Origin: an uncultured Caulobacterales bacterium
Lineage (GTDB): Bacteria; Pseudomonadota; Alphaproteobacteria; Caulobacterales; Maricaulaceae
Direction of reading: 5' to 3'
DNA: 12,210 nucleotides
NCBI GenBank assembly: GCA_938007945.1
Contig: CALLME010000293.1
Location: 1-12,210 of the forward strand
The notes below the pieces were generated by a model. The model had not been told where the DNA came from and ran no database searches. It saw only the letters and a program-made list of their open reading frames with translations. Numbering within the stretch: the stretch's first letter is position 1; the number at the start of each line of letters is the position of its first letter. Below, in pieces: positions 1-12,210 of the stretch. The position numbers and the translations under genes were made by a program.

Positions 1-2052
1 GTAAAGCGGGCTGACGTCATCAAAAGCATAGCCGCGACGTGCCGTTGGTTTGTGATTATAAAAAGCTGGGATTTGCCCAACAGTGCGCGGCACAGTGACA
101 GGCATTTTGCCTGATGGGTTGGCGTCACCATAAAGCAAGTCAGCCACCGCTGTGCCTGTCTCTTGGCCCAATATCCAACCATAGAGAATAGCATCGAATT
201 GGTCTTGCACATTTGTCAGCGCAAGCGGACGCCCAGAGATAACGACTCCGACCATTGGCTTACCTGTCTCAGCAATCGCGTCGATAAGCTCTTTCTGCTC
301 GCCGATGAGTGTGATGTCATTGCGGTCACCCATATGGGCTTCGTTCCAAGCCTCGCGAGAGGTTGACTCGTCACCCCCAATCGCGAGAATAACGAGGTCA
401 GCTTTCTTCGCGACCGCCACGGCCTTATAAATTGAGGACAAGTTTTCATCGCGGTTAGCAAGATTAACTTCATCATCCCACCAGCTACGATTATCTGTCA
501 GTTTCACGCCTTGGGAGTGGAGAATGTCAACTTTGCCATCAAGCTTAGTTTTCAACCCATCAAGAATTGAAATTGTCTGACGCGGCTCATCTGAATACCC
601 GCCAAGCACGGTAATATCCGCATTAGGGCCGATAACAGCGATGGTTTTATATTGGCTATCAGAGAGCGGTAATATGCCGTCATTTTTGACGAGCACGGCC
701 GCCTTCTTAGCTGACTCTAACGCGAGATCACGGGCTTCTTGATTACCTGTTAGCGCATCGGCTTTTTCGCCGTCGGCATAGGGTGTCTCAAACACATTGC
801 CGCGCAGTTTCATCTCAAGCACGCGGCGCACGGCGCGGTCGACATATTTCTCGTCAAACTCACCGGCCTCGATTTTGTCTTTTAGTTCATAAAACGCAAT
901 GCCGTCTGGCAGTTCTAAATCTACACCAGACATGAGCGAAAGTGCGCCAGCTTCGCCAATATCGTTGACGATAGAATGGCGGCGTTGCAGCTCGTTAATG
1001 GCAAAATAATCGGCCACAACGACACCGTCAAAACCCCATTCTTGCCGCAGAATGTCATTGAGAAGCCAAGGATTAGCATGTGAGGGAATGCCATCAATTT
1101 CGTTATAAGACGCCATGACAGAGGCGGCGTTGGCTTCTTTAATGGCAGCTTCAAATGGTGGGAAGAAGGTCTCGCGCAAGACGCGTTCGCTCACTTGGCT
1201 TGGGCCGACATTCATGCCGCCTTCAGGCTGTCCGTGACCTGTCATGTGCTTCAGTGTGGCCAGTACTTTATCGTCTGCAATCGGGAAACTGTCGCCTTGG
1301 AAACCTTTGACGGCCGCGACACCCATGCGCGAGACGAGATAAGGGTCTTCGCCGTAAGTTTCTTCAATGCGGCCCCAACGCGGGTCAAGTGCAATATCCA
1401 CTACGGGCGAGAGCACATGATGCGCCCCGCGGACGCGGATTTCGCGCGCGACAATGGAGAAGATGTCTTCCGCCATGTCTGGGTCAAACGTTGCTGCGAG
1501 GGCAATCGACTGTGGGAAAGAGGTCGCGTAACGGCCCTGAAAACCATGAAGGCCTTCTTCGTGAAAGAGTGTCGGGATACCGAGACGTGTGTCTTCGATA
1601 TGCCATTTCTGAATGGCGTTATTTAGGGCGACCGTCTCAGATGGGGTGCGCGCAGAAAGCTTACGTACGACAGAACTGTCATTAGGATCACGTTCCCCTT
1701 CTTGCTCTTCCATACCAAAGGTATCTTGCGGGCGTGCCCAGCACCCTACGCCGTGCGGGAATTCTTCTTTCATTTTTTCAGGATTAAAACTGCCGTCACT
1801 ATTAAGCGCTTTGGCTTTGTCAAACCAGACGCAGGTAATTTGCGCGAGTTTTTCTTCAATCGTCATCTGCGCCAGAAGCTCTTCAACTTTGGGATTAGAT
1901 GATTTGTCAAAGGTAAGAGCTTTGACCGTTTCTGTCGCTTCACCCTTTGACTTTTCAATTTGAGGGTTGTTCATCTGCGTCTCTCCAGCAGGAGAGCACG
2001 CGGCGAGGGTAATTCCAAAAACGGAGGCGAGCAATAGGTGGCGAAGTTTCAT
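1..2052 (-). CDS. GH3 beta-glucosidase/beta-xylosidase-like lipoprotein, C-terminus cut by window edge
   Basis: Family 3 glycoside hydrolase that should remove beta-linked glucose or xylose from the non-reducing end of oligosaccharides by a retaining mechanism. The visible 684 residues begin with a lipoprotein signal (lipobox L16-A17-A18-C19). A TIM-barrel domain covers about residues 50-400 with H164-E165-E166, K268-H269, the run T271-G-H-G-Q-P-E-G-G and the nucleophile D348 in GFDGVVVADY. An alpha/beta sandwich covers about 440-660, with the acid/base expected in GGDESTSREAW (E562 or E567). The frame is still open at base 1, just before the usual FGYGLSY segment, so about the last 100 residues and a probable fibronectin-III-like domain are missing. 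The start at 2052 is supported by AGGGGAAT just upstream. It is transcribed away from the LacI gene across a shared operator. The GH3 assignment is firm; glucosidase versus xylosidase is not resolved. Confidence 0.93.
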   Translation of the reverse strand, partial: MKLRHLLLASVFGITLAACSPAGETQMNNPQIEKSKGEATETVKALTFDKSSNPKVEELLAQMTIEEKLAQITCVWFDKAKALNSDGSFNPEKMKEEFPHGVGCWARPQDTFGMEEQEGERDPNDSSVVRKLSARTPSETVALNNAIQKWHIEDTRLGIPTLFHEEGLHGFQGRYATSFPQSIALAATFDPDMAEDIFSIVAREIRVRGAHHVLSPVVDIALDPRWGRIEETYGEDPYLVSRMGVAAVKGFQGDSFPIADDKVLATLKHMTGHGQPEGGMNVGPSQVSERVLRETFFPPFEAAIKEANAASVMASYNEIDGIPSHANPWLLNDILRQEWGFDGVVVADYFAINELQRRHSIVNDIGEAGALSLMSGVDLELPDGIAFYELKDKIEAGEFDEKYVDRAVRRVLEMKLRGNVFETPYADGEKADALTGNQEARDLALESAKKAAVLVKNDGILPLSDSQYKTIAVIGPNADITVLGGYSDEPRQTISILDGLKTKLDGKVDILHSQGVKLTDNRSWWDDEVNLANRDENLSSIYKAVAVAKKADLVILAIGGDESTSREAWNEAHMGDRNDITLIGEQKELIDAIAETGKPMVGVVISGRPLALTNVQDQFDAILYGWILGQETGTAVADLLYGDANPSGKMPVTVPRTVGQIPAFYNHKPTARRGYAFDDVSPLY

Positions 2053-2127
2053 GTCATTCCCCTGAATTTATGAGCGCGACGGCACTTCTTACGAGTTCCT
2101 TCCGCTAAATAACTGTGACTTTGACTT

Positions 2128-2171
2128 TTCATAAGGCAAAATTGACATCGTTGTCAATTTGACTTTAAGAT
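2128..2171. promoter_or_regulatory. Probable back-to-back divergent promoters sharing one operator
   Basis: Rightward, TTGACA at 2142-2147 and TAAGAT at 2166-2171 are 18 bp apart and would serve the LacI-esterase unit, with transcription starting near 2178. Leftward, TTGACA on the minus strand (2157-2152) and TATGAA (2133-2128), also 18 bp apart, would serve the GH3 gene. Both -35 boxes fall inside the inverted repeat, so a bound repressor would shut both directions at once. The boxes match the sigma-70 consensus well at -35 and 4 of 6 at -10. Assignment is by eye only. Confidence 0.45.
2141..2158. promoter_or_regulatory. LacI-family operator in the divergent gap
   Basis: ATTGACATCGTTGTCAAT is an inverted repeat with 7-bp arms (ATTGACA / TGTCAAT) around a 4-bp centre; one more base pair on each side extends the symmetry. 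Read on the minus strand it is ATTGACAACGATGTCAAT and carries the central ACG typical of LacI-family sites. It differs at only two positions from the site at 5038-5055. It lies between the LacI gene and the divergent GH3 gene, so autoregulation and repression of the GH3 are the natural reading. Confidence 0.75.
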
Positions 2172-2199
2172 AAGTTATGGAAAACCTGATTTTGGTACT

Positions 2200-3255
2200 T
2201 TGGGCCGAATTCATTTTGCGGAGACAAGCGCCATTCAGACTAGCCCTCTAAAACCCAGTACTATTAAAGATGTCGCGAGAGAGGCAGGCGTTTCAATTAA
2301 GACGGTGTCGCGCGTTATTAATGGCGAGCCGCATGTCAGTGCTCGTATGCGTGAGAAAGTGCTGGCGTCTGTTGAGCTGTTGAATTTCAAGATAAATGCG
2401 GCGGCACGGTCGCTTCGCTCAAAGCTTGCCAAGCAACTCGTTGTAGTTTTGGATAACCCGTCACAGAGCTATACCGAAGCTGTGCAGATTAATGCTGTGT
2501 TAGCGTGTCAGCCTTTTGGCTTTGAGTTGTCTTTGCAAGGCTCTGCTGATTTGGACGCGCTTACAATTGCAATGGAGAGTGGAACCCTTGTGGGGCTTGT
2601 GCTGACGCCGCCGCTTTCTAATGATTTTGAGTTGCTTGACAGGCTCAGCAAGGCTGACTTGCCCTTCGTAAGGGTGGGGGCCGAACGCGGGCCCATTGAA
2701 TTAAATGAGGCAGGTGATAAAATCGGCATTGATGACCGCGTCGCTGCGAGCGAAATGACGGCGCATTTGATTGCACTCGGCCACACTCGCATTGGCTTTA
2801 TTACGGGCGCGCAAAGCTATGACGTCGCGCGGCGGCGTTTGATGGGCTATTATGACGGGCTGCAAAAAGCGGGCATCTCGCGTAACTCTAGTCTCGTTGT
2901 GGAGGGTGATTTCTCATATGCTTCTGGTCTGTTGTGTGGGGAGGCATTGATGAGCCAGACCTCGCGCCCTACGGCTATCTTTGCTAGTAATGATGATATG
3001 GCGGCGGGCTGTCTGGCGAGCGCCTATAAACTTGGCTTACGCGTGCCTGACACGCTCTCGGTTGTCGGCTTTGATGACGCGCCGTTCTCACGCATCATCT
3101 ATCCCGCCCTAACAACCGTGCATCAATCCTTAGACGATATGATGGAGCAAGCTGTCGCTATATTAGCGGCAAGGCGCTCTGACCCTTCCGCGCCGTTGCG
3201 CGATGTTGTGATTGCGCATAGCCTTGTCAAAAGGGAATCATGCGCCGCGCCGTAA
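2200..3255 (+). CDS. LacI-family transcriptional repressor
   Basis: Sugar-responsive DNA-binding regulator, 351 residues. A LacI helix-turn-helix lies at residues 21-45 (TIKDVAREAGVS, then IKTVSRVINGE), followed by a hinge helix around N66-AAARSLRS. The rest is the periplasmic-binding-protein-like effector domain, ending with the family signatures FASNDDMAAG (261-270) and VVGFDDAPFSRIIYPALTTV (288-307). The start is uncertain: the frame has no ATG before the DNA-binding domain, and TTG at 2200 is the best choice, giving a 20-residue leader with no clear ribosome binding site. The gene is followed after 21 nt by the esterase gene, so the two are likely co-transcribed. Its probable targets are the two near-identical operators at 2141-2158 and 5038-5055. 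The ligand is unknown, but GH3 and esterase neighbours suggest a beta-glucoside or related oligosaccharide. Confidence 0.92.
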   Translation: MGRIHFAETSAIQTSPLKPSTIKDVAREAGVSIKTVSRVINGEPHVSARMREKVLASVELLNFKINAAARSLRSKLAKQLVVVLDNPSQSYTEAVQINAVLACQPFGFELSLQGSADLDALTIAMESGTLVGLVLTPPLSNDFELLDRLSKADLPFVRVGAERGPIELNEAGDKIGIDDRVAASEMTAHLIALGHTRIGFITGAQSYDVARRRLMGYYDGLQKAGISRNSSLVVEGDFSYASGLLCGEALMSQTSRPTAIFASNDDMAAGCLASAYKLGLRVPDTLSVVGFDDAPFSRIIYPALTTVHQSLDDMMEQAVAILAARRSDPSAPLRDVVIAHSLVKRESCAAP

Positions 3256-3276
3256 GCGCGTGTAGGAAGTAACAAT

Positions 3277-4965
3277 ATGCGGAATTATCTCAAAACTTTA
3301 GTCGTCGGGTTTTTATCTCTTCTTTTGCTTGCGTGCGAAGCGCCGCAACTCACGGGTAAATCTACGACTGGTGAGGTGCACTATCTCGGGCGTTATGATA
3401 TGACTGAGGCAGGCGATGTCCGTATGGGCTGGCCAGGCAGTGGTCTAAGTTTACGCTTTCGGGGCACGAAATTAACAGTCACGATAACAGACGGCGGGAA
3501 CGGCATTATGGACGCCGTCATTAACGGCAAATCCTCGGCGCTCATCTTGCGAGAAGGCCGTCAAGATTACGACATTGTTAGCTCAGACACAGAGAGTTTG
3601 TTTGATATTTCACTGACCCGCCGCACGGAGGTTTTCGATACGGGTCTGTTTGAGATTAATGATGTTAAAGTCACAGGCGAATTAGTTGGGGCGCCAGCTA
3701 TAGATCGCAAAATCTTGTTTATCGGCGATAGCATTACCACAGGCTTTGGCGTTCGCGGGAACACGAAAGACTGCCAATATTCGCCAGCGTCAAATGCGCC
3801 GCGCAAAAGCTATGCTTGGCTCGCGGCGGATGCGCTTAAAGCCGAGCCGCATCTTGTTGCTATTTCTGGGCGAGGGGTCGTCTTTAATTACGATAATGAC
3901 CCCAACCCTGTTATGCCTTTGCAAATCGATTACGCTGTGCCTGACACAGACAGCCGTTGGGAACATACTAAATTCCAAGCAGATGTCGTTGTTGTCATGC
4001 TCGGCACAAATGACTGGTCCACCGTAGATCCCGGGCAGGAAAAATTTAATTCAGGCTATCTTGCCCTCGTCAATGATATTCGCGCGCGCTTTCCCAAAGC
4101 ACATATTGTTATGGCAAGCGGGCCGCTACTGGGCGGAGCGCAGGGGGCGGCTATCGTTGACGGGATTGACTATGTGAAATCTCAAATGAGCTCTGACGCA
4201 AATCTCTCATCTGTAAATCTATCGCTCTCAGAGACACAGTTAAAGTGGAGCTGTAACGCCCATCCGGGTCGCGACAGCATGGTCAAAATGGCCAACGATG
4301 TGTCCGCTCATATTTCAAAACAAACAGGATGGAAAGCTAAGACGCGATCTCTGCCCAAAGACCTGACCATCGCGCCGCCGCCTGAAATGTATGAGGGCGG
4401 GAAGGCGCATTACGCCAAGCGCGTGAAAGAAATTGCGAAAAACCCGCCACTTGAAGGCGGTGTGCTTTTCCTTGGCGACAGCATTACCGAGGCGGGACAA
4501 TGGGGTGAGTATTATCCGAATATTCCAACGGCCAATCACGGGATTGGCTGGGACACGGTCAGGGGAGTCGGCGGGCGTTTGCAGCAGGTTATTCTTAACC
4601 GTCCTGACAAAGTCTTTATCAAAATCGGCACAAATGACATTAGCTATGGCCATGATCCTGTTGATATGGCCGAAGACCTTGAGAACATCATTCGCGGCCT
4701 GAAGTTTAAAATGGGTGATGCCAAGATATACATTCAATCCGTCATGCCGCGCGAGCTTGAGAATAGGGGCAAAGTCGACGCGATTAACGCAGAGTATAAA
4801 AAAGTCGCGCAAGATTTAGGTGTCACTTTTATAGATTTACGCGAGGCGTTCGCCGCGCCAGATGGCAGTCTAAAAGCTGAGCTAACTTATGATAATTTGC
4901 ATCTGAATGATGCGGGTTATAAAGTTTGGGCGGAAGCGTTGCGCCCCTTTGTGGAGGGGGAATAG
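3277..4965 (+). CDS. Double-headed SGNH carbohydrate esterase lipoprotein (CE2-like plus GDSL domain)
   Basis: Exported esterase of 562 residues, expected to remove acetyl groups from carbohydrate. The lipobox is L17-L18-A19-C20. Residues about 33-135 form a beta-rich module like the N-terminal jelly roll of CE2 acetyl esterases. The first SGNH domain (about 145-345) has G150-D151-S152, a glycine block near 198-200, G243-T-N245-D and H329. The usual Asp three residues before the His is C326 here, and two before is N327, so it may work as a Ser-His dyad, as described for CE2 enzymes. A second, independent SGNH domain (about 392-560) has G400-D401-S402, G451-T-N453-D and an intact D539-x-x-H542. 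A linker at about 350-390 (proline run APPPE) joins them. AGGAAG precedes the ATG. It follows the LacI gene closely and probably acts with the neighbouring GH3 enzymes on an acetylated substrate; the substrate is not shown. Confidence 0.88.
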   Translation: MRNYLKTLVVGFLSLLLLACEAPQLTGKSTTGEVHYLGRYDMTEAGDVRMGWPGSGLSLRFRGTKLTVTITDGGNGIMDAVINGKSSALILREGRQDYDIVSSDTESLFDISLTRRTEVFDTGLFEINDVKVTGELVGAPAIDRKILFIGDSITTGFGVRGNTKDCQYSPASNAPRKSYAWLAADALKAEPHLVAISGRGVVFNYDNDPNPVMPLQIDYAVPDTDSRWEHTKFQADVVVVMLGTNDWSTVDPGQEKFNSGYLALVNDIRARFPKAHIVMASGPLLGGAQGAAIVDGIDYVKSQMSSDANLSSVNLSLSETQLKWSCNAHPGRDSMVKMANDVSAHISKQTGWKAKTRSLPKDLTIAPPPEMYEGGKAHYAKRVKEIAKNPPLEGGVLFLGDSITEAGQWGEYYPNIPTANHGIGWDTVRGVGGRLQQVILNRPDKVFIKIGTNDISYGHDPVDMAEDLENIIRGLKFKMGDAKIYIQSVMPRELENRGKVDAINAEYKKVAQDLGVTFIDLREAFAAPDGSLKAELTYDNLHLNDAGYKVWAEALRPFVEGE

Positions 4966-5037
4966 GGTGATGCGCGCCTTTAGCTATGGCCAAATTGCCA
5001 CATTTCCCAGTTATCAACGCCGCTATGAAAGTTAACA

Positions 5038-5055
5038 ATTGACAACGCTGTCATT
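5038..5055. promoter_or_regulatory. Second LacI-family operator, upstream of the ExoP-like GH3
   Basis: ATTGACAACGCTGTCATT matches the divergent-gap operator at 16 of 18 positions in minus-strand orientation and keeps the TGACA / TGTCA arms and central ACG. It sits 82 nt before the GH3 start codon within a 172-nt non-coding gap. TTGACA at 5039-5044 inside it may be the -35 box; the best -10 at 17-bp spacing, TCTTTT (5062-5067), is poor. Repression by the LacI protein encoded at 2200-3255 is inferred from the matching sites. Confidence 0.72.
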
Positions 5056-5137
5056 TTTGCGTCTTTTTAGTTTAACGCCGCCAACCGAGCTGCGAAAAAA
5101 TAATGTAGCGGGCACGTCCCGTCAGGGAGTATAGCAA

Positions 5138-7690
5138 ATGTCAAAACTACAAATTCTGCGCTCAACAACAGCGCTTATCTCAGCTGCCGTCCTCATTGGA
5201 TGTAATTCAGCGACCGATACAAGCGCGGATGCTGCGAATGATAAAGCGGCAACGACAGTTTCAATGCCAGGTGAAGTTAACGCGCAACTTTGGCCAGAAG
5301 CCAAAAGCCCTGTCGCGCTCGACCCTGCCATGGAAGCGCGCATCACAGAGATTATTGCGCAGATGACACTTCGTCAAAAAATCGGCCAAGTCATCCAAGG
5401 CGATATCGGCTCCCTGACGCCAGAAGATTTGAAAACCTACCCGCTGGGCTCTGTACTGAACGGCGGTAATTCTGCGCCTAATGGGGATAACCGTTCACCC
5501 GCCTCAGCTTGGGTGGAGCTGGCGGATGAGTTTTGGGACGCGACAAAAGCGGCAGACCTTGAAGGCGGGCCGTTTATTCCCATCCTTTGGGGTACAGATG
5601 CGGTGCATGGTCACAACAATATCCCGGGCGCGACCGTCTTTCCGCACAATATCGGGCTAGGCGCGACGCGTAACCCTGACCTTCTTGGTAAAATCGGCGC
5701 GATTACAGCCCGCGAAATTCGCGTCGGGGCACAAGAGTGGACATTTGCGCCAACCATCGCCGTTGTGCGCGACGACCGCTGGGGCCGCACTTATGAAGGT
5801 TACGCGGAAAGCCCAGAGGTCACCGTCAGCTATACAGGTGAGCTTATCACAGGTATCCAAGGACAGCCCGGAACAGACACATGGCTGAAAGGCCCAAAGG
5901 TTATTGCAACAGCCAAGCACTTCCTGGGTGACGGCGGTACAGCAGGTGGCCGCGATCAAGGCGATAATCTTGATAGCGAAGAAGATTTGCGCGACATTCA
6001 CGGCGCGGCTTATCCTGTCGCCATTGAGGCTGGCACACAGTCGGTCATGATTTCATTTTCAAGCTGGCAAGGCAAAAAGCTCCACGGTCACAAAGGCCTT
6101 ATTACTGATGTCCTCAAAGAACGCATGGGCTTTGACGGCTTTGTTGTCGGTGACTGGAACGCCCATGGTCAGATTGAAGGCTGTACGAATACGGATTGCT
6201 TGAAAGCGCTTAATGCGGGTCTTGATATGTATATGGCGTCTGATAGCTGGCGCGGCCTTTTTGATACTATGCTCGCCCAAGCTGAGCGCGGCGAAGTTGA
6301 TATGGATCGCTTGGAGGATGCCATCCGTCGTATCCTGCGCGTAAAACTTCGCAGTGGTCTGTTTGAAGCCGGTCGTCCGAGCGAGCGTCCTTTGGCAGGC
6401 GATTATGATATCCTGCAAGATCCAGCGTCTAAAGAGGTCGCGCGCCAAGCTGTGCGTGAGTCGCTTGTGCTGATTAAAAACAATGGTGTCTTGCCGCTTA
6501 AGAAAAGCATGAATGTGCTCATGGCAGGTGACGGCGCCGACAATATCGGCAAGCAATCAGGTGGCTGGACATTGTCTTGGCAGGGCACAGGGAATTCAAA
6601 TTCTGATTTCCCAGGTGGCTCATCATTTTATGATGGCGTGAAGCGCCACGTCGAAGCAGGCGGCGGTTCGGTAACGCTCTCTGAAGACGGTAACTATAGC
6701 GGTAAGCCTGATGTGGCGATGGTTGTTTTTGGTGAAGACCCATATGCCGAATTCAAAGGCGATATTGATAATCTGTCCTACAAACCAGGTGATGATAGCG
6801 ACCTTGCGCTTTTGCAAAAATATAAAGCTGACGGCATTCCCGTTGTGGCTGTGTTCCTCTCAGGACGTCCGCTCTGGATGAACCGCGAGATTAATAGCTC
6901 TGACGCGTTTGTGGCGGCGTGGTTGCCAGGCTCTGAAGGTGGTTACGCGACAGACGTTTTGTTTGGCGACGCAGACTTTAAAGGCACATTGCCTTACTCT
7001 TGGCCACGCACAGCCGTACAGACGCCACTAAATGTGGGCGACGAGAATTACGACCCGCTCTTTGCTTATGGCTACGGCCTGTCATATGCAAAGCCCGGCA
7101 AGGTGGGTGAGTTGTCTGAGGAGGCAGGTATTTCGCTTGCTGTGAAAAATGACAGTGATTATTTCCGCGTCGGTAAATCTGTCTTCCCATGGGCGATGTA
7201 TGCCCATGACAGCGCAGGTAAAACGACGATTGCGACGACGCGTGGTCGTTCGCCGCAAGGAATTATCCAAGTCAACTCAGCCGATGACGGGGCGCAGGAA
7301 AATATCCGCACAATCGAATGGGATGGTCGCGGCGAGGCGCGCTTTGAGGTCGGCGGGAACGCCATTGATCTTTCGCGTCAAACAACGGCGGATATGGCGG
7401 TGTATTTCCGCATCCGCCGTGACACAGATATGGACGGCACTAATCTTGATCTGAATGTGCTCTGCGGCAAAGACTGCGTGACCGAAGCACAGCCGCTTGG
7501 CACATCGCTGGCCAAAGCGCCGCAAGGTGAGTGGCAAGAATATCAAGTCAAGCTTTCGTGCTTTGCAGAGGGTAGCAGCCTGGGTAGCGTGACCGCGCCT
7601 TTCACGTTGACATCTGATGATGCTTTCCAAGTTTCGCTCTCCGATGTGCGCCTGATTACCAACGAAGGCGCGGCAGGCTGTCTTAAGTAA
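5138..7690 (+). CDS. GH3 exo-1,3/1,4-beta-glucanase (ExoP-like) lipoprotein
   Basis: Retaining exo-acting beta-glucan glucohydrolase, 850 residues, expected to release glucose from beta-1,3/1,4-linked gluco-oligosaccharides. The lipoprotein signal has L19-I20-G21-C22. The TIM barrel (about 60-410) carries WGTDAVHGHNN (151-161), K260-H261 and nucleophile D339 in GFVVGDWNAH. The alpha/beta domain (about 430-650) carries the acid/base segment FGEDPYAEFKGD (531-542; E533 or E538) and ends with AYGYGLSY. C349 and C354 in GCTNTDC could form a disulfide near the active site. An extra beta-rich domain (about 655-850) with four cysteines (776, 780, 808, 848) resembles the C-terminal domain of ExoP from Pseudoalteromonas; its role is unknown. 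AGGGAG precedes the ATG by 8 nt. It is clearly a different GH3 subgroup from the left-hand enzyme. The upstream operator links it to the local LacI repressor. Confidence 0.94.
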   Translation: MSKLQILRSTTALISAAVLIGCNSATDTSADAANDKAATTVSMPGEVNAQLWPEAKSPVALDPAMEARITEIIAQMTLRQKIGQVIQGDIGSLTPEDLKTYPLGSVLNGGNSAPNGDNRSPASAWVELADEFWDATKAADLEGGPFIPILWGTDAVHGHNNIPGATVFPHNIGLGATRNPDLLGKIGAITAREIRVGAQEWTFAPTIAVVRDDRWGRTYEGYAESPEVTVSYTGELITGIQGQPGTDTWLKGPKVIATAKHFLGDGGTAGGRDQGDNLDSEEDLRDIHGAAYPVAIEAGTQSVMISFSSWQGKKLHGHKGLITDVLKERMGFDGFVVGDWNAHGQIEGCTNTDCLKALNAGLDMYMASDSWRGLFDTMLAQAERGEVDMDRLEDAIRRILRVKLRSGLFEAGRPSERPLAGDYDILQDPASKEVARQAVRESLVLIKNNGVLPLKKSMNVLMAGDGADNIGKQSGGWTLSWQGTGNSNSDFPGGSSFYDGVKRHVEAGGGSVTLSEDGNYSGKPDVAMVVFGEDPYAEFKGDIDNLSYKPGDDSDLALLQKYKADGIPVVAVFLSGRPLWMNREINSSDAFVAAWLPGSEGGYATDVLFGDADFKGTLPYSWPRTAVQTPLNVGDENYDPLFAYGYGLSYAKPGKVGELSEEAGISLAVKNDSDYFRVGKSVFPWAMYAHDSAGKTTIATTRGRSPQGIIQVNSADDGAQENIRTIEWDGRGEARFEVGGNAIDLSRQTTADMAVYFRIRRDTDMDGTNLDLNVLCGKDCVTEAQPLGTSLAKAPQGEWQEYQVKLSCFAEGSSLGSVTAPFTLTSDDAFQVSLSDVRLITNEGAAGCLK

Positions 7691-7795: not shown

Positions 7796-8926
7796 ATGGC
7801 ACGGGAAAATTCCGTCATTAAATACGGTATGGTCGGCGGTGGCCAAGGCGCTTTCATCGGCGAAGTACACCGTTTGGCTGCGCGGCTTGACGGCAAGATT
7901 GACCTTGTCTGTGGCGCATTCTCAAGAGATGCGGATAATTGCAAAACCACCGGAGCCGCGCTCGGGCTAGACCCATCACGTTGTTATGCTGACTTTGAAG
8001 CCATGATGGTGGGCGAGGCCGCACGCCCTGAATCAGAGCGCATGGATTTTGTCTCAATCGTGACGCCCAATCACGTGCATTTCCCCGTCGCGAAAGCTGC
8101 GCTTGAGGCGGGCTTTCATGTCCTTTCGGACAAACCCGCCACGCTGAATTTAAAAGAAGCCAAGCAGCTTCGTAAAATCGTCAAAGCGAGCGGTAAATCT
8201 TACGGCCTCACCCATACCTATCTCGGCTATCCACTTGTTGGGGAGGCGCGCGGCATTATTGAGGCAGGCGGCATTGGCAAAGTGCGTAAAGTCTTCGTCG
8301 AATATATTCAAGGCTGGCTCGCAACTGAGGTTGATAATAAACAAGCCGATTGGCGCACAGACCCTGCGCGCTCCGGCGGCTCGGGCTGTATGGGCGATAT
8401 TGGCACGCACGCCCATAATCTCGCTGAATTTATCACAGGCAAACGCATGACCCATGTCGCGGCTGATTTATCTATTTTCGTGGATGGTAGACGTCTAGAT
8501 GATGATGGTTCTGCTCTGTTTCGGATGGAAGACGGCATCAAAGGCACGCTATCTGCGAGCCAGATTTGCGTCGGCAATGAGAACAGCCTGTCTATTCGCG
8601 TTTACGGCGAAACAGGTGGGCTGGAATGGCATCAGGAAGAACCTAATACGCTCACGCGGACTTATCTTGATAAACCGACAGAAATCTTGCGCGCGGCGAA
8701 TGGGTATCTTTCGCAAGGTGCGCAAGATTGGTTCCGCACACCGCCAGGCCATCCCGAAGGCTATCTCGAAGCCTTCGCCAATTGCTATCTCGATTTTGCC
8801 AAAGCTATTCAAACAAACGGCGGCAGCACAACGGGCATAGAGGCTGGTGTGCGCGGTATGGCCTTTGTCGAAGCACTGCTGACCAGCAGTAAAAAGAACT
8901 CAAAATGGATAGAGATTAAATCATGA
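7796..8926 (+). CDS. Gfo/Idh/MocA-family NAD(P)-dependent sugar oxidoreductase
   Basis: Cytoplasmic dehydrogenase/reductase acting on a sugar or sugar derivative, 376 residues, no signal peptide. The N-terminal Rossmann fold has the glycine-rich loop G11-M-V-G-G-G-Q-G (11-18) and the family lysine K113 in S-D-K-P, a variant of the usual EKP. The C-terminal alpha/beta domain has G200-D201-I-G-T-H205-A-H-N, with D201 and H205 in the usual catalytic positions. AGGGAG lies 6 nt before the ATG. The stop overlaps the next gene's start by 4 nt (ATGA), so the two are translationally coupled. Enzymes of this family oxidise or reduce C3 of glycosides in levoglucosan, trehalose (ThuB) and C-glucoside degradation. 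With a TIM-barrel partner and a GMC dehydrogenase alongside, a 3-keto-sugar redox step is the best inference, but the substrate is not shown by the sequence. Confidence 0.9.
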   Translation: MARENSVIKYGMVGGGQGAFIGEVHRLAARLDGKIDLVCGAFSRDADNCKTTGAALGLDPSRCYADFEAMMVGEAARPESERMDFVSIVTPNHVHFPVAKAALEAGFHVLSDKPATLNLKEAKQLRKIVKASGKSYGLTHTYLGYPLVGEARGIIEAGGIGKVRKVFVEYIQGWLATEVDNKQADWRTDPARSGGSGCMGDIGTHAHNLAEFITGKRMTHVAADLSIFVDGRRLDDDGSALFRMEDGIKGTLSASQICVGNENSLSIRVYGETGGLEWHQEEPNTLTRTYLDKPTEILRAANGYLSQGAQDWFRTPPGHPEGYLEAFANCYLDFAKAIQTNGGSTTGIEAGVRGMAFVEALLTSSKKNSKWIEIKS

Positions 8927-9975
8927 AAACCCTCAAAGGTCCCGGAATTTTCCTCGCGCAATTTATGGGCGACGCCCCGTTTGATAGTATGGATAACGCC
9001 TGCAAGTGGATGGCAGACGCGGGCTATAAGGGCGTACAAATTCCGTCTGATAATCCCGTCTGTATGGACCTCAAACTCGCCGCAGAAAGCCAGACTTATT
9101 GTGATGAGTTAAAAGGACGTTGCGCCGAGAACGGCGTGAAAATTACAGAGCTTTCGACCCATATCCAAGGACAGCTTGTCGCTGTGCATCCTGCTTATGA
9201 CACGGCCTTTGACGCGTTTGCACCTGCGCACCTCCACGGCAAACCCGATGACCGTCAGCGCTGGGCGGTAGAGCAAGTCATGTTCGCCGCCAAAGCCTCT
9301 CAGCGTCTGGGTCTTGACCGTTCGGTCTCATTCTCAGGCGCGCTCGTTTGGCCCTTTATGTATCCTTGGCCGCAACGCCCTGCGGGCCTTGTCGAAGAGG
9401 GCTTTGATGAATTGGCGCGCCGCTGGCGTCCGATTTTTGATTACTATGATGAGTGCGGCGTGGATGTTTGTTTTGAAATACATCCTGGTGAAGACCTGCA
9501 TGACGGTATCACATTTGAAATGCTGCTGGAGCGCGTCGACAATCACCCGCGCTGCAACATCCTTTATGACCCAAGCCATTTCATTTTGCAGCAGCTGGAT
9601 TACCTCGCCTTCATAGACCACTACAAAGACCGCATCCGTATGTTCCACGTCAAAGATGCGGAATTTAATCCGACAGGAAAATCAGGAATTTACGGCGGCT
9701 ATCAAAGCTGGGTGGATCGTCCGGGACGTTTCCGCTCTCTTGGTGATGGGCAAATAGATTTCAAAGCGATTTTCGCGAAAATGGCGGCCAATGATTTTGA
9801 TGGCTGGGCTGTGGTGGAATGGGAATGCGCGCTCAAGCACAACCAAGACGGCGCGCGCGAAGGGGCGCAATTTGTCAAAGATCACATCATTCGCGTGACA
9901 GATAAAGCCTTTGATGATTTCGCAGGCGGCGCAGCGGACAAAAAGACGAATAAGAAAATGCTAGGACTAACCTAG
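8923..9975 (+). CDS. Sugar phosphate isomerase/epimerase-like TIM-barrel protein
   Basis: Xylose-isomerase-like TIM barrel of the AP-endonuclease-2 superfamily, 350 residues, cytoplasmic. The probable divalent-metal ligands are E185 in CFEIHPGE, D216 in LYDPSHF, H242 in MFHVKD and E299 in AVVEWE, the usual E-D-H-E set. H80 and H187 are further candidates near the site. It is longer than the roughly 280-residue core family because of an insertion around 80-165 that includes an aromatic-rich stretch (WPFMYPWP, 143-150) and a lysine-rich tail. Start by ATGA overlap with the oxidoreductase gene. In 3-keto-glycoside pathways such proteins act as isomerases, epimerases or beta-eliminating lyases on the oxidised sugar; that role here is inferred from context. 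Confidence 0.87.
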   Translation: MKTLKGPGIFLAQFMGDAPFDSMDNACKWMADAGYKGVQIPSDNPVCMDLKLAAESQTYCDELKGRCAENGVKITELSTHIQGQLVAVHPAYDTAFDAFAPAHLHGKPDDRQRWAVEQVMFAAKASQRLGLDRSVSFSGALVWPFMYPWPQRPAGLVEEGFDELARRWRPIFDYYDECGVDVCFEIHPGEDLHDGITFEMLLERVDNHPRCNILYDPSHFILQQLDYLAFIDHYKDRIRMFHVKDAEFNPTGKSGIYGGYQSWVDRPGRFRSLGDGQIDFKAIFAKMAANDFDGWAVVEWECALKHNQDGAREGAQFVKDHIIRVTDKAFDDFAGGAADKKTNKKMLGLT

Positions 9976-10021
9976 AGGTTTAATGGCTCCAAAGAAGAGC
10001 CTTGAATTAATTAAATATAAT

Positions 10022-10030
10022 AAGGGGAAG
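10022..10030 (+). promoter_or_regulatory. Ribosome binding site deciding the MFS start
   Basis: AAGGGGAAG lies 3 nt before the ATG at 10034, with the GGGG core 6 nt away. The in-frame ATG at 9983 has only a weaker AGAGG and would add a 17-residue lysine-rich tail before the first membrane span, so the inner start is preferred. Confidence 0.6.
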
Positions 10031-10033
10031 AAA

Positions 10034-11299
10034 ATGGTTGATACAACACTGGCGATGAATGAGGGAATAAAGCCGAACCGGCTTTTCGTGTTGAGTTGCG
10101 TGGCGCTCTGCGTCACCGCCATGACTTTTGCCATTCGGGCAGGCATGCTCAATGACCTCGGCACAGAGTTTAGCCTCACCAAAGCACAGCTCGGTTGGAC
10201 AGCCTCCATGGCGTTTTTCGGCTTCCCTGCCGCGACCATTATTGGTGGATTAATTTACAACGCCATCGGCCCGCGCCTCATTATGATTGTCGCCTTCCTC
10301 GGGCACTTGCTCGGATTAGGGCTGACGATTTTCGCAGGTGGATTTATGGGGTTGATGATTTCAACCTTCTTTGTCGGCTTTGCCAATGGCGCCGTTGAAG
10401 CGGCCTGTAATCCGATGATTGCAAATATGTACCGCGAAAATAAAACGACGATGCTGAATAAGTTTCATGTCTGGTTCCCAGGCGGCATTGTCGTAGGCTC
10501 ACTCGCAGCGCTCGCTGTGAAGAAGCTATTCGGTGCAGGCGGTAATCCGACATGGCAGCTTGAAATCGCGGTCATGCTTATCCCGACCCTCATTTACGGC
10601 TATATGATTTTCACTACGAAATTCCCAGATGTGCAGCACGATAAGACTGACCTGACGGACACAGGTAAGAACTTAAAAGCGCTGATTTCACCGCTCTTTA
10701 TTTTCATGTGCGTTTTGATGACAATCACAGCGACAACAGAGCTTGGCACGCAGCAATGGGTCGGCTCACTGCTCGAAAGCTCAGGTGCAAACCCGCTGAT
10801 TATTCTCGCGATTGTGACAGGCCTTATGGCGGTGGGGCGATATTTTGCGGGGCCGCTTGTACATGCGCTCAACCCGATTGGTGTTCTGCTGTTCTCGGCC
10901 GTGGTCACAACGCTCGGTGTCTTCTTGCTCAGCATGGCGACAGGGCCGATGACTTATGTGGCGGCCATCGTATTTGCGATTGGCGTCTGTTATTTCTGGC
11001 CAACGATGATTGGATTTATCGGCGAATATATGCCGCAAACCGGCGCGCTGGGTATGTCGATTATCGGCGGAGTTGGCATGATGGGCCTTGCGATGTGGCA
11101 GCCTGTTATTGGTGGCTGGATTGATAGTGAAACAGAAAAAGCGCAAGCCGCAGGCGTAGTAGGTGATGCCGTGCAACTCGCGGCGGGGCAGGCAACACTG
11201 GGTAAGATTTTGCTTTTCCCGATTGTGCTCGTGCTAGCTTATGGCCTGCTCTTTGCTCTGCGTAAAAAGTTCATTTCACATGGAGCCTCTCATGCATAA
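10034..11299 (+). CDS. MFS sugar transporter
   Basis: Inner-membrane major facilitator permease, 421 residues from the preferred start, with about 12 hydrophobic spans: six before and six after a polar central loop at about residues 197-216 (DVQHDKTDLTDTGKN). Charged positions typical of MFS sugar porters occur in the first half, for example N118-G-A-V-E122-A-A-C-N126 in span 4 and R35 at the end of span 1. The sequence resembles the fucose/glucose permease-like branch (FHS), by eye only. It lies 58 nt after the TIM-barrel gene, and its end overlaps the next start by 8 nt. In this operon it most plausibly imports the glycoside or 3-keto sugar made in the periplasm by the downstream dehydrogenase. 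Confidence 0.88.
   Translation: MVDTTLAMNEGIKPNRLFVLSCVALCVTAMTFAIRAGMLNDLGTEFSLTKAQLGWTASMAFFGFPAATIIGGLIYNAIGPRLIMIVAFLGHLLGLGLTIFAGGFMGLMISTFFVGFANGAVEAACNPMIANMYRENKTTMLNKFHVWFPGGIVVGSLAALAVKKLFGAGGNPTWQLEIAVMLIPTLIYGYMIFTTKFPDVQHDKTDLTDTGKNLKALISPLFIFMCVLMTITATTELGTQQWVGSLLESSGANPLIILAIVTGLMAVGRYFAGPLVHALNPIGVLLFSAVVTTLGVFLLSMATGPMTYVAAIVFAIGVCYFWPTMIGFIGEYMPQTGALGMSIIGGVGMMGLAMWQPVIGGWIDSETEKAQAAGVVGDAVQLAAGQATLGKILLFPIVLVLAYGLLFALRKKFISHGASHA
11282..11285 (+). promoter_or_regulatory. Ribosome binding site deciding the small-subunit start
   Basis: GGAG sits 6 nt before the ATG at 11292 and lies within the end of the transporter gene. This favours 11292 over the in-frame ATGs at 11241 and 11280, and puts the twin arginines at residues 8-9, the normal place for a Tat signal. 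Confidence 0.6.
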
Positions 11300-11864
11300 T
11301 ATCGGCACAAGCCGCAGGGACGCTATTAAAGGTCTGCTTGCAATATCTGCGAGCGGGGCTTTGGCAGCGTGCAGCGGCGCGAAAGAGGGAAGTGCGGGTT
11401 CCGCAAAAACAACGAAGACCGCGTCTGAACTCTCAGCGGCTAATATGGTCACGCTGACGGCGGTGGTCGACACCATCATCCCCGCGACTGAGACAGGCGG
11501 CGCGATTGCGGCGGGTGTGCCTGCAACGCTCGCCTCGCTCGTCAAAGACTGGGGCGATGATAATTTCAAAGCGTATTGGACGGCAGGCATGGACGCGCTT
11601 GGCAAAACGCTTAACGCCAAAGCGGGGCAGAGCTTTGCCAATATGTCAGCCAAGCAGAAAGAAAGCCTGCTCAGCAAATATGACGCTGATGTTTACGGCG
11701 GAAAAATCAAAGATGATTTTTACAAGGACATGAAACAAACGGCGGCAACGGCTTATTATATGAGCGAGATTGGCGCGTCAGAAGAGCTCGCCTATGAGCC
11801 TGTACCGGGCGAGTGGATTGGCTGTGTACCGCTGGCGGATTTCCCTAAGACGTGGGCGACATAG
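11292..11864 (+). CDS. Gluconate 2-dehydrogenase subunit 3-family protein with Tat lipoprotein signal
   Basis: Small (gamma) subunit that partners a GMC flavoprotein in periplasmic sugar dehydrogenases, 190 residues. A Tat signal starts TSRRDAIKGLL (R8-R9) and ends in a lipobox L24-A25-A26-C27, so it is likely exported folded and lipid-anchored. The mature part has the family mark DTIIPATETGGAIAAGVP (about residues 58-75), a helical body and a conserved C-terminal tail ending in PGEWIGCVPL and a final FPKTW. The start overlaps the transporter gene by 8 nt; the stop is 2 nt before the GMC start. In known glucoside 3-dehydrogenases this subunit carries the export signal for the whole complex; here the adjoining GMC protein lacks a signal, fitting that picture. 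Confidence 0.88.
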   Translation: MHNIGTSRRDAIKGLLAISASGALAACSGAKEGSAGSAKTTKTASELSAANMVTLTAVVDTIIPATETGGAIAAGVPATLASLVKDWGDDNFKAYWTAGMDALGKTLNAKAGQSFANMSAKQKESLLSKYDADVYGGKIKDDFYKDMKQTAATAYYMSEIGASEELAYEPVPGEWIGCVPLADFPKTWAT

Positions 11865-11866
11865 AT

Positions 11867-12210
11867 ATGGCTGATGAAAAAACATATGACTTTGATGTCA
11901 TCGTTGTCGGCTCTGGTATGTCGGGCGGCTGGGTGGCCAAAGAAATGGCCGAGCGCGGGATGAAAGTCTGCGTGCTTGAGCGCGGCAAAGACATTGTCCC
12001 TACAGAGGACTACACTGATTTCGAAGACCCATGGCAGCATGAGCAACTCAATAAGAAGTCGGCGAAAGACTGGGAAGATTATCCTATTCAGGCCGAAGTC
12101 TATGCCTTCCACAGCTATACAAAACAGTTCTGGGTGAAAGATAAAGAGCATCCATATGAAACGCCTGCGGGACAAGATTACCGCTGGCGTCGCGGCTATC
12201 ATACAGGTGG
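11867..12210 (+). CDS. GMC-family flavoprotein oxidoreductase, N-terminal part only
   Basis: FAD-dependent catalytic subunit, probably of a glucoside 3-dehydrogenase-type complex; the window ends after 114 codons and 2 bases. The N-terminus has the dinucleotide-binding loop G15-S-G17-M-S-G20-G21-W22 followed by the ribose-binding L37-E38-R39-G40, and the visible part ends in W107-R-R-G-Y-H-T-G, which in GMC proteins leads into the FAD-contacting GG motif. There is no signal peptide, so export by the Tat system together with the preceding subunit is likely. The start codon is 2 nt after the small-subunit stop, with no clear ribosome binding site, so translation is probably coupled. The oxidised substrate and electron acceptor (usually a c-type cytochrome) cannot be read from this fragment. 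Confidence 0.88.
   Translation, partial: MADEKTYDFDVIVVGSGMSGGWVAKEMAERGMKVCVLERGKDIVPTEDYTDFEDPWQHEQLNKKSAKDWEDYPIQAEVYAFHSYTKQFWVKDKEHPYETPAGQDYRWRRGYHTG

Follow-up and report, generated by a model that had tools for sequence, protein, structure and literature searches.

The window analysed here, a stretch of 12,210 nucleotides from an uncultured Caulobacterales bacterium of the Maricaulaceae (CALLME010000293.1), constitutes one entire contig (C293) of a 2.0 Mb genome that is estimated to be 70% complete (G000; G, C and L numbers are our labels for genomes, contigs and loci). Open reading frames (ORFs) and Pfam matches revealed five genes packed on its forward strand, for a Gfo/Idh/MocA oxidoreductase (hereafter MocA), a TIM barrel protein, an MFS permease, a Gluconate_2-dh3 small subunit and the start of a GMC dehydrogenase, which bears out a preliminary description, made from the sequence alone, that had placed these genes behind a LacI/GH3/esterase cluster. 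We consider it likely that the oxidative part of this glycan or glucoside locus is an Agrobacterium-type non-hydrolytic route with its first two steps in the periplasm. The chemistry is already known, and the variant in compartment is apparently new. The oxidative genes are as follows.

7796..8926, + strand: Gfo/Idh/MocA oxidoreductase (PF01408/PF22725); no visible export signal; proposed 3-keto-glucose reductase
8923..9975, + strand: 2-hydroxy-3-keto-glucal hydratase, a TIM barrel (PDB 8ro4, E 1.9e-171); no visible export signal
10034..11299, + strand: MFS permease (PF07690); proposed importer of the elimination product
11292..11864 (start may be 11280), + strand: Gluconate_2-dh3 small subunit (PF13618, 93.5 bits, cut-off 23.4); proposed exporter and partner of the GMC dehydrogenase
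11867..12210, + strand: GMC dehydrogenase copy 1, N-terminal ~114 residues, cut by the contig end; start at ATG 11867 or GTG 11852

The MocA and hydratase genes overlap by 4 bp, and the small subunit gene, with a start at ATG 11280 or 11292, overlaps the end of the MFS gene, whose ORF opens at 9983 and for which close relatives of ~419-421 residues suggest a start at ATG 10034 (relatives of this permease are named 'MFS transporter' or 'sugar MFS transporter'). The N-terminus of the small subunit, MHNIGTSRRDAIKGLLAISASGALAACSG, holds a twin arginine and a lipobox and is thus that of a twin-arginine translocation (Tat)-type lipoprotein, both motifs being judged by eye, here and below. In Pfam alone the GMC fragment is an FAD-binding N-terminus, and it carries the GMC label because its relatives match, at 74-80% to GMC copy 1 of G001, G054 and G012, one of these being a Pfam-confirmed GMC protein. 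Because the order MocA-hydratase-MFS-small subunit-GMC recurs in G012, G036, G054, G027, G057 and L015, the five-gene set noticed in the preliminary description is not a chance grouping.

Hydratase, reductase and eliminase

The window TIM barrel is identical in 238 of 350 columns (68%) to 8ro4, deposited as 2-hydroxy-3-keto-glucal hydratase, with other solved relatives far weaker (2zds, 1e-41; 3cny, an IolE with a partial match, 7e-13), and with a close homologue solved and so named it is, by homology, a hydratase. For its Agrobacterium counterpart AtHYD, the cited parts of the literature give preliminary evidence and propose hydration of 2-hydroxy-3-keto-glucal to 3-keto-glucose, which the Gfo oxidoreductase of the same operon would reduce to glucose (PMC10628242). 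An inositol or inosose pathway with IolE- and IolG-like enzymes, the alternative named in the preliminary description, can draw on the partial 3cny match and on weak matches to both models, but these reach only 66 of the 290 bits required for IolE and 56 of 355 for IolG, and the match to 8ro4 is far stronger than that to 3cny. With scores so far under the cut-offs, we rejected this pathway as extremely unlikely.

Comparison of the best 80 of at least 598 hydratase loci revealed a MocA homologue in 79, lying at most 300 bases from the hydratase in 69, and the sole locus lacking one (L045) stops 16 bases past the hydratase match. The family and position of MocA fit a 3-keto-glucose reductase (nearest solved relative 3v5n, deposited only as an oxidoreductase), and its position together with the Agrobacterium Gfo suggests that it would reduce 3-keto-glucose to glucose. 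MocA might otherwise be the first oxidant, a cytoplasmic NAD-dependent glycoside 3-dehydrogenase like LgdA, with the GMC complex acting on another substrate. Its top NCBIfam model is levoglucosan dehydrogenase (NF052479), and in the levoglucosan route, as far as the cited parts describe it, an NAD-dependent enzyme oxidises first (PMC7676230), but the score lies far under the cut-off (113 of 650 bits), a MocA gene lies close to the hydratase in those 69 loci while the step that follows hydration is a reduction, and the eliminase treated below has an export leader and stays with GMC rather than with MocA where the locus is split. We hold this role for MocA to be quite unlikely.

In relatives, the operon continues with one to four tandem GMC genes and then a PF01261 TIM barrel protein that bears a Tat-type lipoprotein leader. 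The window's own genome holds a single copy of this TIM lipoprotein, on contig C170 (L106), the end of which falls inside a GMC gene and the order of which is GMC, TIM lipoprotein, GH10 and cytochrome c maturation genes. The C170 protein matches AtOGE, i.e., structure 8bvk (E 1.3e-23), as well as the solved 8tcd, 8tcs and 8tct (E 1e-22 to 7e-14), which are deposited as sugar phosphate isomerase or TIM barrel protein and which we take to be lyases of a gut-bacterial 3-keto-glycan route. In AtOGE, the parts of the study cited here list His132, Asp163, His189 and, weakly, Glu233 as metal ligands and His134 as catalytic, its alanine variant being inactive (PMC10628242). All five residues are identical in 53 of 53 aligned homologues, the C170 copy included, with Glu39 and His66 also invariant and Glu161 kept in 52 of the 53. 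The C170 protein, by homology and conserved active site, fits a beta-eliminase, and its predicted reaction would be the splitting of a 3-keto-glucoside. A cleavage gene, as anticipated in the preliminary description, was found, on C170; it is of AtOGE type, however, and not the ThuA-like or DUF1080 gene that had been suggested.

This finding bears on a further alternative, in which the GMC and small subunit proteins oxidise C3, a periplasmic PF06439 (DUF1080) 3-keto-glycoside hydrolase cleaves, as in a LacABC/DUF1080-type route, and the TIM barrels act elsewhere. The C3-oxidising GMC-type parts are common to both routes, and the cited parts of a fitness study propose such a route for Caulobacter lactose use (PMC9007349), but PF06439 had no match in the window's own genome (70% complete) or in the complete G001, and of the 59 family genomes 8 match it, 4 of them over the cut-off, with G027 alone among the 8 also having the hydratase. 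With an AtOGE-type protein of conserved active site present instead, and no PF06439 match in the 70% complete genome or in G001, we rejected the DUF1080 hydrolase route as very unlikely. Among ORFs of at least 90 residues in the G001 locus, no ThuA gene was recognised, nor a cytochrome c gene, the subunit of which we presume to be part of the LacABC/DUF1080 route; no family search was made for either.

The C170 GMC gene is nearest the last GMC copy of relatives (80-81% in G001 and G012) and the window fragment nearest the first, so these two are probably different genes, and an intervening GMC array may have broken the assembly between C293 and C170. The rest of the window operon (last GMC copy, eliminase and GH10) probably lies on C170, and in the same-genus G020 three GMC genes and then the TIM lipoprotein stand on one contig. 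Searched with GMC copy 1, the window's own genome yielded only the two cut GMC genes, and strong matches (E <1e-150) occurred in the other nine of ten eliminase genomes and in G050. The tandem copies may prefer different sugars or linkages. Runs of three to four tandem GMC genes were also seen in L094 (12604-19392), L092, L091 and L124, with copies of one genome ~50-65% alike. On C170, positions 464-5232 past GH10 hold CcmF and CcmH (Pfam) and, by eye, a redoxin (CcmG), YceI, cytochrome b561 and CcmI; because no such maturation-type genes were seen beside GH10 in G001, they are probably an unrelated neighbour.

The two TIM barrels were counted in 59 genomes of the family and 299 of the order. 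Among the family genomes, the hydratase occurred in 9, the eliminase in 10 and both in 9. In the order, hydratase matches better than 1e-150 (49 genomes) and eliminase matches better than 1e-17 (50 genomes) coincided in 46 genomes, i.e., 46/49 and 46/50 (Fisher 1e-45, uncorrected for kinship), with weaker rows left out (10 of 59 hydratase genomes and 9 of 59 eliminase genomes). MocA, hydratase, MFS, small subunit, GMC copies and eliminase are contiguous in G012, G036 and G054, and the complete same-genus G001 has the same contiguous set with two blocks swapped and GH10 between the blocks. MFS adjoins the hydratase in G001, G012, G036, G054, G018, G027 and G057.

Hydrolytic neighbours and the LacI-type palindrome

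Upstream of the oxidative genes, the window holds the following features.

1..2052, - strand: GH3a glycoside hydrolase (PF00933/PF01915); lipoprotein-like N-terminus; 3' end off the contig; divergent from LacI
2143..2156, no strand assigned: LacI-type operator candidate TGACATCGTTGTCA, within a 22-bp palindrome at 2139-2160 between GH3a and LacI
2200..3255, + strand: LacI-family regulator (PF00356, PF13377); TTG start as listed, the true start may be further in
3277..4965, + strand: CE2/GDSL esterase (PF17996 and PF13472, the latter in two stretches); lipoprotein-like N-terminus
5040..5053, no strand assigned: second operator candidate TGACAACGCTGTCA, upstream of GH3b and possibly, via read-through, of the oxidative genes
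5138..7690, + strand: GH3b, beta-glucan exohydrolase-like (PF00933, PF01915, PF18559; PDB 3usz, E 4e-218)

GH3a reached no NCBIfam cut-off among the models listed, and the nearest solved relative of GH3b, 3usz, is an exo-1,3/1,4-beta-glucanase. For the esterase, the likeness to an acetylxylan/glucomannan deacetylase model stays under the cut-off (AxeC2, 171 bits against 500), and the C170 GH10 is nearest beta-xylanases (7d88, E 2e-37). These resemblances make an acetylated or mixed beta-glucan or xylan-type glycan plausible as the substrate. With its N-terminal CE2 part and two GDSL matches, the esterase perhaps holds two esterase domains within a single lipoprotein.

In G001 all of these genes form one contiguous locus, in which GH3a, divergent from LacI, is followed by a sugar porter, CE2, four halogenase-like genes on the opposite strand, a TonB receptor and GH3b, and then by the small subunit, two GMC genes, eliminase, GH10, MocA, hydratase and MFS. 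The four halogenase-like genes (L098, 9099-15083) are a tandem run of tryptophan-halogenase-like genes, two of which were tested and are PF04820, and similar runs lie near the equivalent genes in G027 and G057.

One might nonetheless read the oxidative operon as an ordinary stand-alone glucoside route to which the GH3 and CE2 neighbours are unrelated. In the window GH3b and MocA are 105 bp apart, which would allow this, and no GH3, CE2 or GH10 homologue appeared in the DNA read around the operon in G012, G036, G054 and G201, so the link is not universal. Against it, GH3b and the small subunit are 34 bases apart in G001 and GH10 adjoins MocA there, GH10 also follows the eliminase on C170, and hydrolase genes lie near operon parts elsewhere: GH3b-like genes in G027, G057, G005, G127 and G103, GH3a, LacI and CE2 beside small subunit and eliminase in G240, and a GH3 gene preceding MocA-hydratase-small subunit-GMC in Croceicoccus marinus. 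GH10 homologues are also nearby in G126. A palindrome common to hydrolytic and oxidative modules points the same way, and we judge the stand-alone reading unlikely, if a real possibility. Within the genus, the contiguous G001 locus and this palindrome agree with the proposal of the preliminary description that the hydrolytic and oxidative genes belong together, and we infer that a single glycan would be attacked by both routes.

The palindrome, TGACAnSSnTGTCA, has 2 sites in the window against 0.08 expected, and 2 sites arose in 0 of 200 shuffles, for a pattern drawn partly from the two window sites themselves. G001 has it 5' of LacI, the sugar porter and the TonB receptor, and it precedes the first gene in 9 of 9 MocA- or small subunit-led modules examined in seven family genomes (G012, G036, G054, G057, G027, G005 and G018). 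Six of these have it in exact form at 28-71 bases, and it carries one mismatch in both G018 modules (44 and 45 bases) and in the G005 MocA module (141 bases), with distances counted from starts given by alignment or the longest ORF. Whole-genome counts of the exact form, as the pattern TGACANSSNTGTCA, came to 6-12 for each of ten carriers and to 1, 0 and 3 for three non-carriers, and the reversed pattern gave 0-1. A LacI-type repressor probably controls the hydrolytic and oxidative genes jointly. Among the matches listed, TGACAGCGCTGTCA is a frequent form of the palindrome, suggesting a wider set of LacI regulons.

Compartments and the proposed route

A Tat-type leader with a lipobox is present on the small subunit and the eliminase, and none is visible by eye on the hydratase or MocA. 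Where the genes are on different contigs, in G018 and G005, small subunit, GMC and eliminase are separated from hydratase and MocA, with MFS beside the latter pair in G018 only, and this split appears to follow the proposed compartments. We read eliminase neighbourhoods in 50 order genomes (48 of the counted 50, without G200 and G267 and with G020 and G057 added) and at four further eliminase loci, one of which, L015, repeats G185. Nine genomes had a leaderless eliminase, in loci with hydratase, MocA, GMC and eliminase and without a small subunit or such an MFS gene (L140, L143, L145, L146, L148-L151 and L153). None of the nine genomes, searched whole, has a PF13618 gene, whereas four comparison genomes do. 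In the eliminase tree the nine eliminases group as one clade (100/98), so the joint absence of leader and PF13618 counts as one linked event rather than nine. The clade apparently has the route in cytoplasmic form. At either kind of locus, the GMC proteins have at most a few residues ahead of the flavin-binding motif, and GMC export would therefore depend on the small subunit. Among five of the nine leaderless loci read closely, an MFS_2-type sugar transporter lies near the genes in L150 and L151, and an extra PF01261 TIM barrel in L146 and L151.

Taken together, these observations are consistent with a route in six steps. Exported GH10, GH3 and CE2 enzymes would trim a beta-glycan, and in G001 a TonB receptor is linked to the locus as well. 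The Tat-type small subunit would carry one of several GMC flavoproteins out, and the two, by comparison with GlycDH and its TAT subunit, would oxidise C3 of a beta-glucosyl unit and pass electrons to an acceptor. The C170 eliminase would split the 3-keto-glucoside into 2-hydroxy-3-keto-glucal and the leaving sugar or aglycone, the MFS permease would import the 2-hydroxy-3-keto-glucal, the window hydratase would make 3-keto-glucose in the cytoplasm, and MocA, from its position and the Agrobacterium Gfo, would reduce this to glucose. We give roughly even odds to the full split form, in which Tat-exported oxidation and elimination, MFS import of the enone and hydration and reduction inside are combined with a genus-level LacI operator common to the glycan hydrolases, and in which hydrolysis and elimination would both act on one polymer.

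Several observations weigh against this route or its parts. MocA, besides its low levoglucosan dehydrogenase score, reaches only 27 of 750 bits with the BT_2158 model, and no close characterised reductase relative of it came up among PDB and NCBIfam matches. The co-occurrence statistics ignore kinship, the tenth eliminase genome of the family, the same-genus G020 (73% complete), has no hydratase match, and in the order the hydratase stands without eliminase in G129, G163 and G311 and the eliminase without hydratase in G130, G152, G162 and G218. No 15-mer is common to the 400-base contig ends of C293 and C170, the adjacency of which is inferred only. In the DNA read, leader-bearing eliminases at L135, L137, L142, L144, L152, L154 and L155 had no hydratase nearby, 12 loci with small subunit, hydratase and leader-bearing eliminase (L156-L159 and L161-L168) had no such MFS gene, nor did the G005 hydratase/MocA locus, and the MFS proteins are only 50-55% alike in several loci. 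The exact palindrome occurs in only 2 of 40 further order loci, and because it has 6-12 copies per carrier genome, several regulators may share it, so that it is not regulator-specific. Directly before MocA in the window there is no palindrome, and since no terminator-like site is listed between GH3b and MocA either, transcription may read through from the site at 5040.

The analysis proposes functions for marine Maricaulales genes that are annotated as isomerase, oxidoreductase and gluconate dehydrogenase (Fretibacter rubidus, for one, whose genus belongs to the Robiginitomaculaceae of the Maricaulales, is described in the cited part of its report as a seawater isolate; PMC11556079), and it suggests that glycan use in these bacteria is underestimated by glycoside hydrolase counts alone. 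If the periplasmic split is true, the cells would take up an unstable enone as a nutrient, a transport activity new to the MFS family would be expected, and the two kinds of locus could show, as a natural experiment, how a pathway of several steps changes compartment. In open-licence PMC papers, we found no description of an exported eliminase combined with an MFS importer and regulation common to hydrolases.

Comparison with known systems

The proposed route shares its sequence of oxidation, elimination, hydration and reduction with the levoglucosan genes lgdA-B1-B2-C, which differ in that NAD-dependent LgdA acts first, and the cited parts of that work describe no GMC/Tat pair (PMC7676230). 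It resembles Caulobacter LacABC in having a multi-component C3 dehydrogenase in the periplasm, whereas the cited parts on LacABC name a DUF1080 3'-keto-lactose hydrolase and propose hydrolytic cleavage by PF06439 (PMC9007349), a family with no match in the 70% complete genome here or in G001. The solved 8tcd, 8tcs and 8tct are homologues of the eliminase here, at the E values given above.

The closest likeness is to the A. tumefaciens set, which in the cited parts of its description comprises GlycDH, AtOGE, AtHYD and Gfo, with GlycDH expressed together with a TAT subunit, in a four-step route of C3 oxidation, beta-elimination, hydration and reduction (PMC10628242). The preliminary description had recognised the C3 oxidation/elimination type of the locus, which its match to this set upholds, but had also stated that no described pathway with this exact set came to mind; the set is that of GlycDH/AtOGE/AtHYD/Gfo, and the TIM barrel that had been called an isomerase or epimerase is the hydratase. 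Both systems have a GMC-type dehydrogenase with a Tat subunit, a TIM-barrel eliminase, a TIM-barrel hydratase and a Gfo/Idh/MocA protein, the five AtOGE active-site residues are identical, and the hydratase is 68% identical to 8ro4. Unlike the A. tumefaciens set, the eliminase here carries a Tat-type lipoprotein leader (the crystallised 8bvk starts 8 residues before the matched core), relatives have one to four GMC copies, an MFS gene lies in the operon (ABC genes adjoin the hydratase homologues in two Agrobacterium plasmid loci), and GH3, CE2 and GH10 genes lie in the locus.

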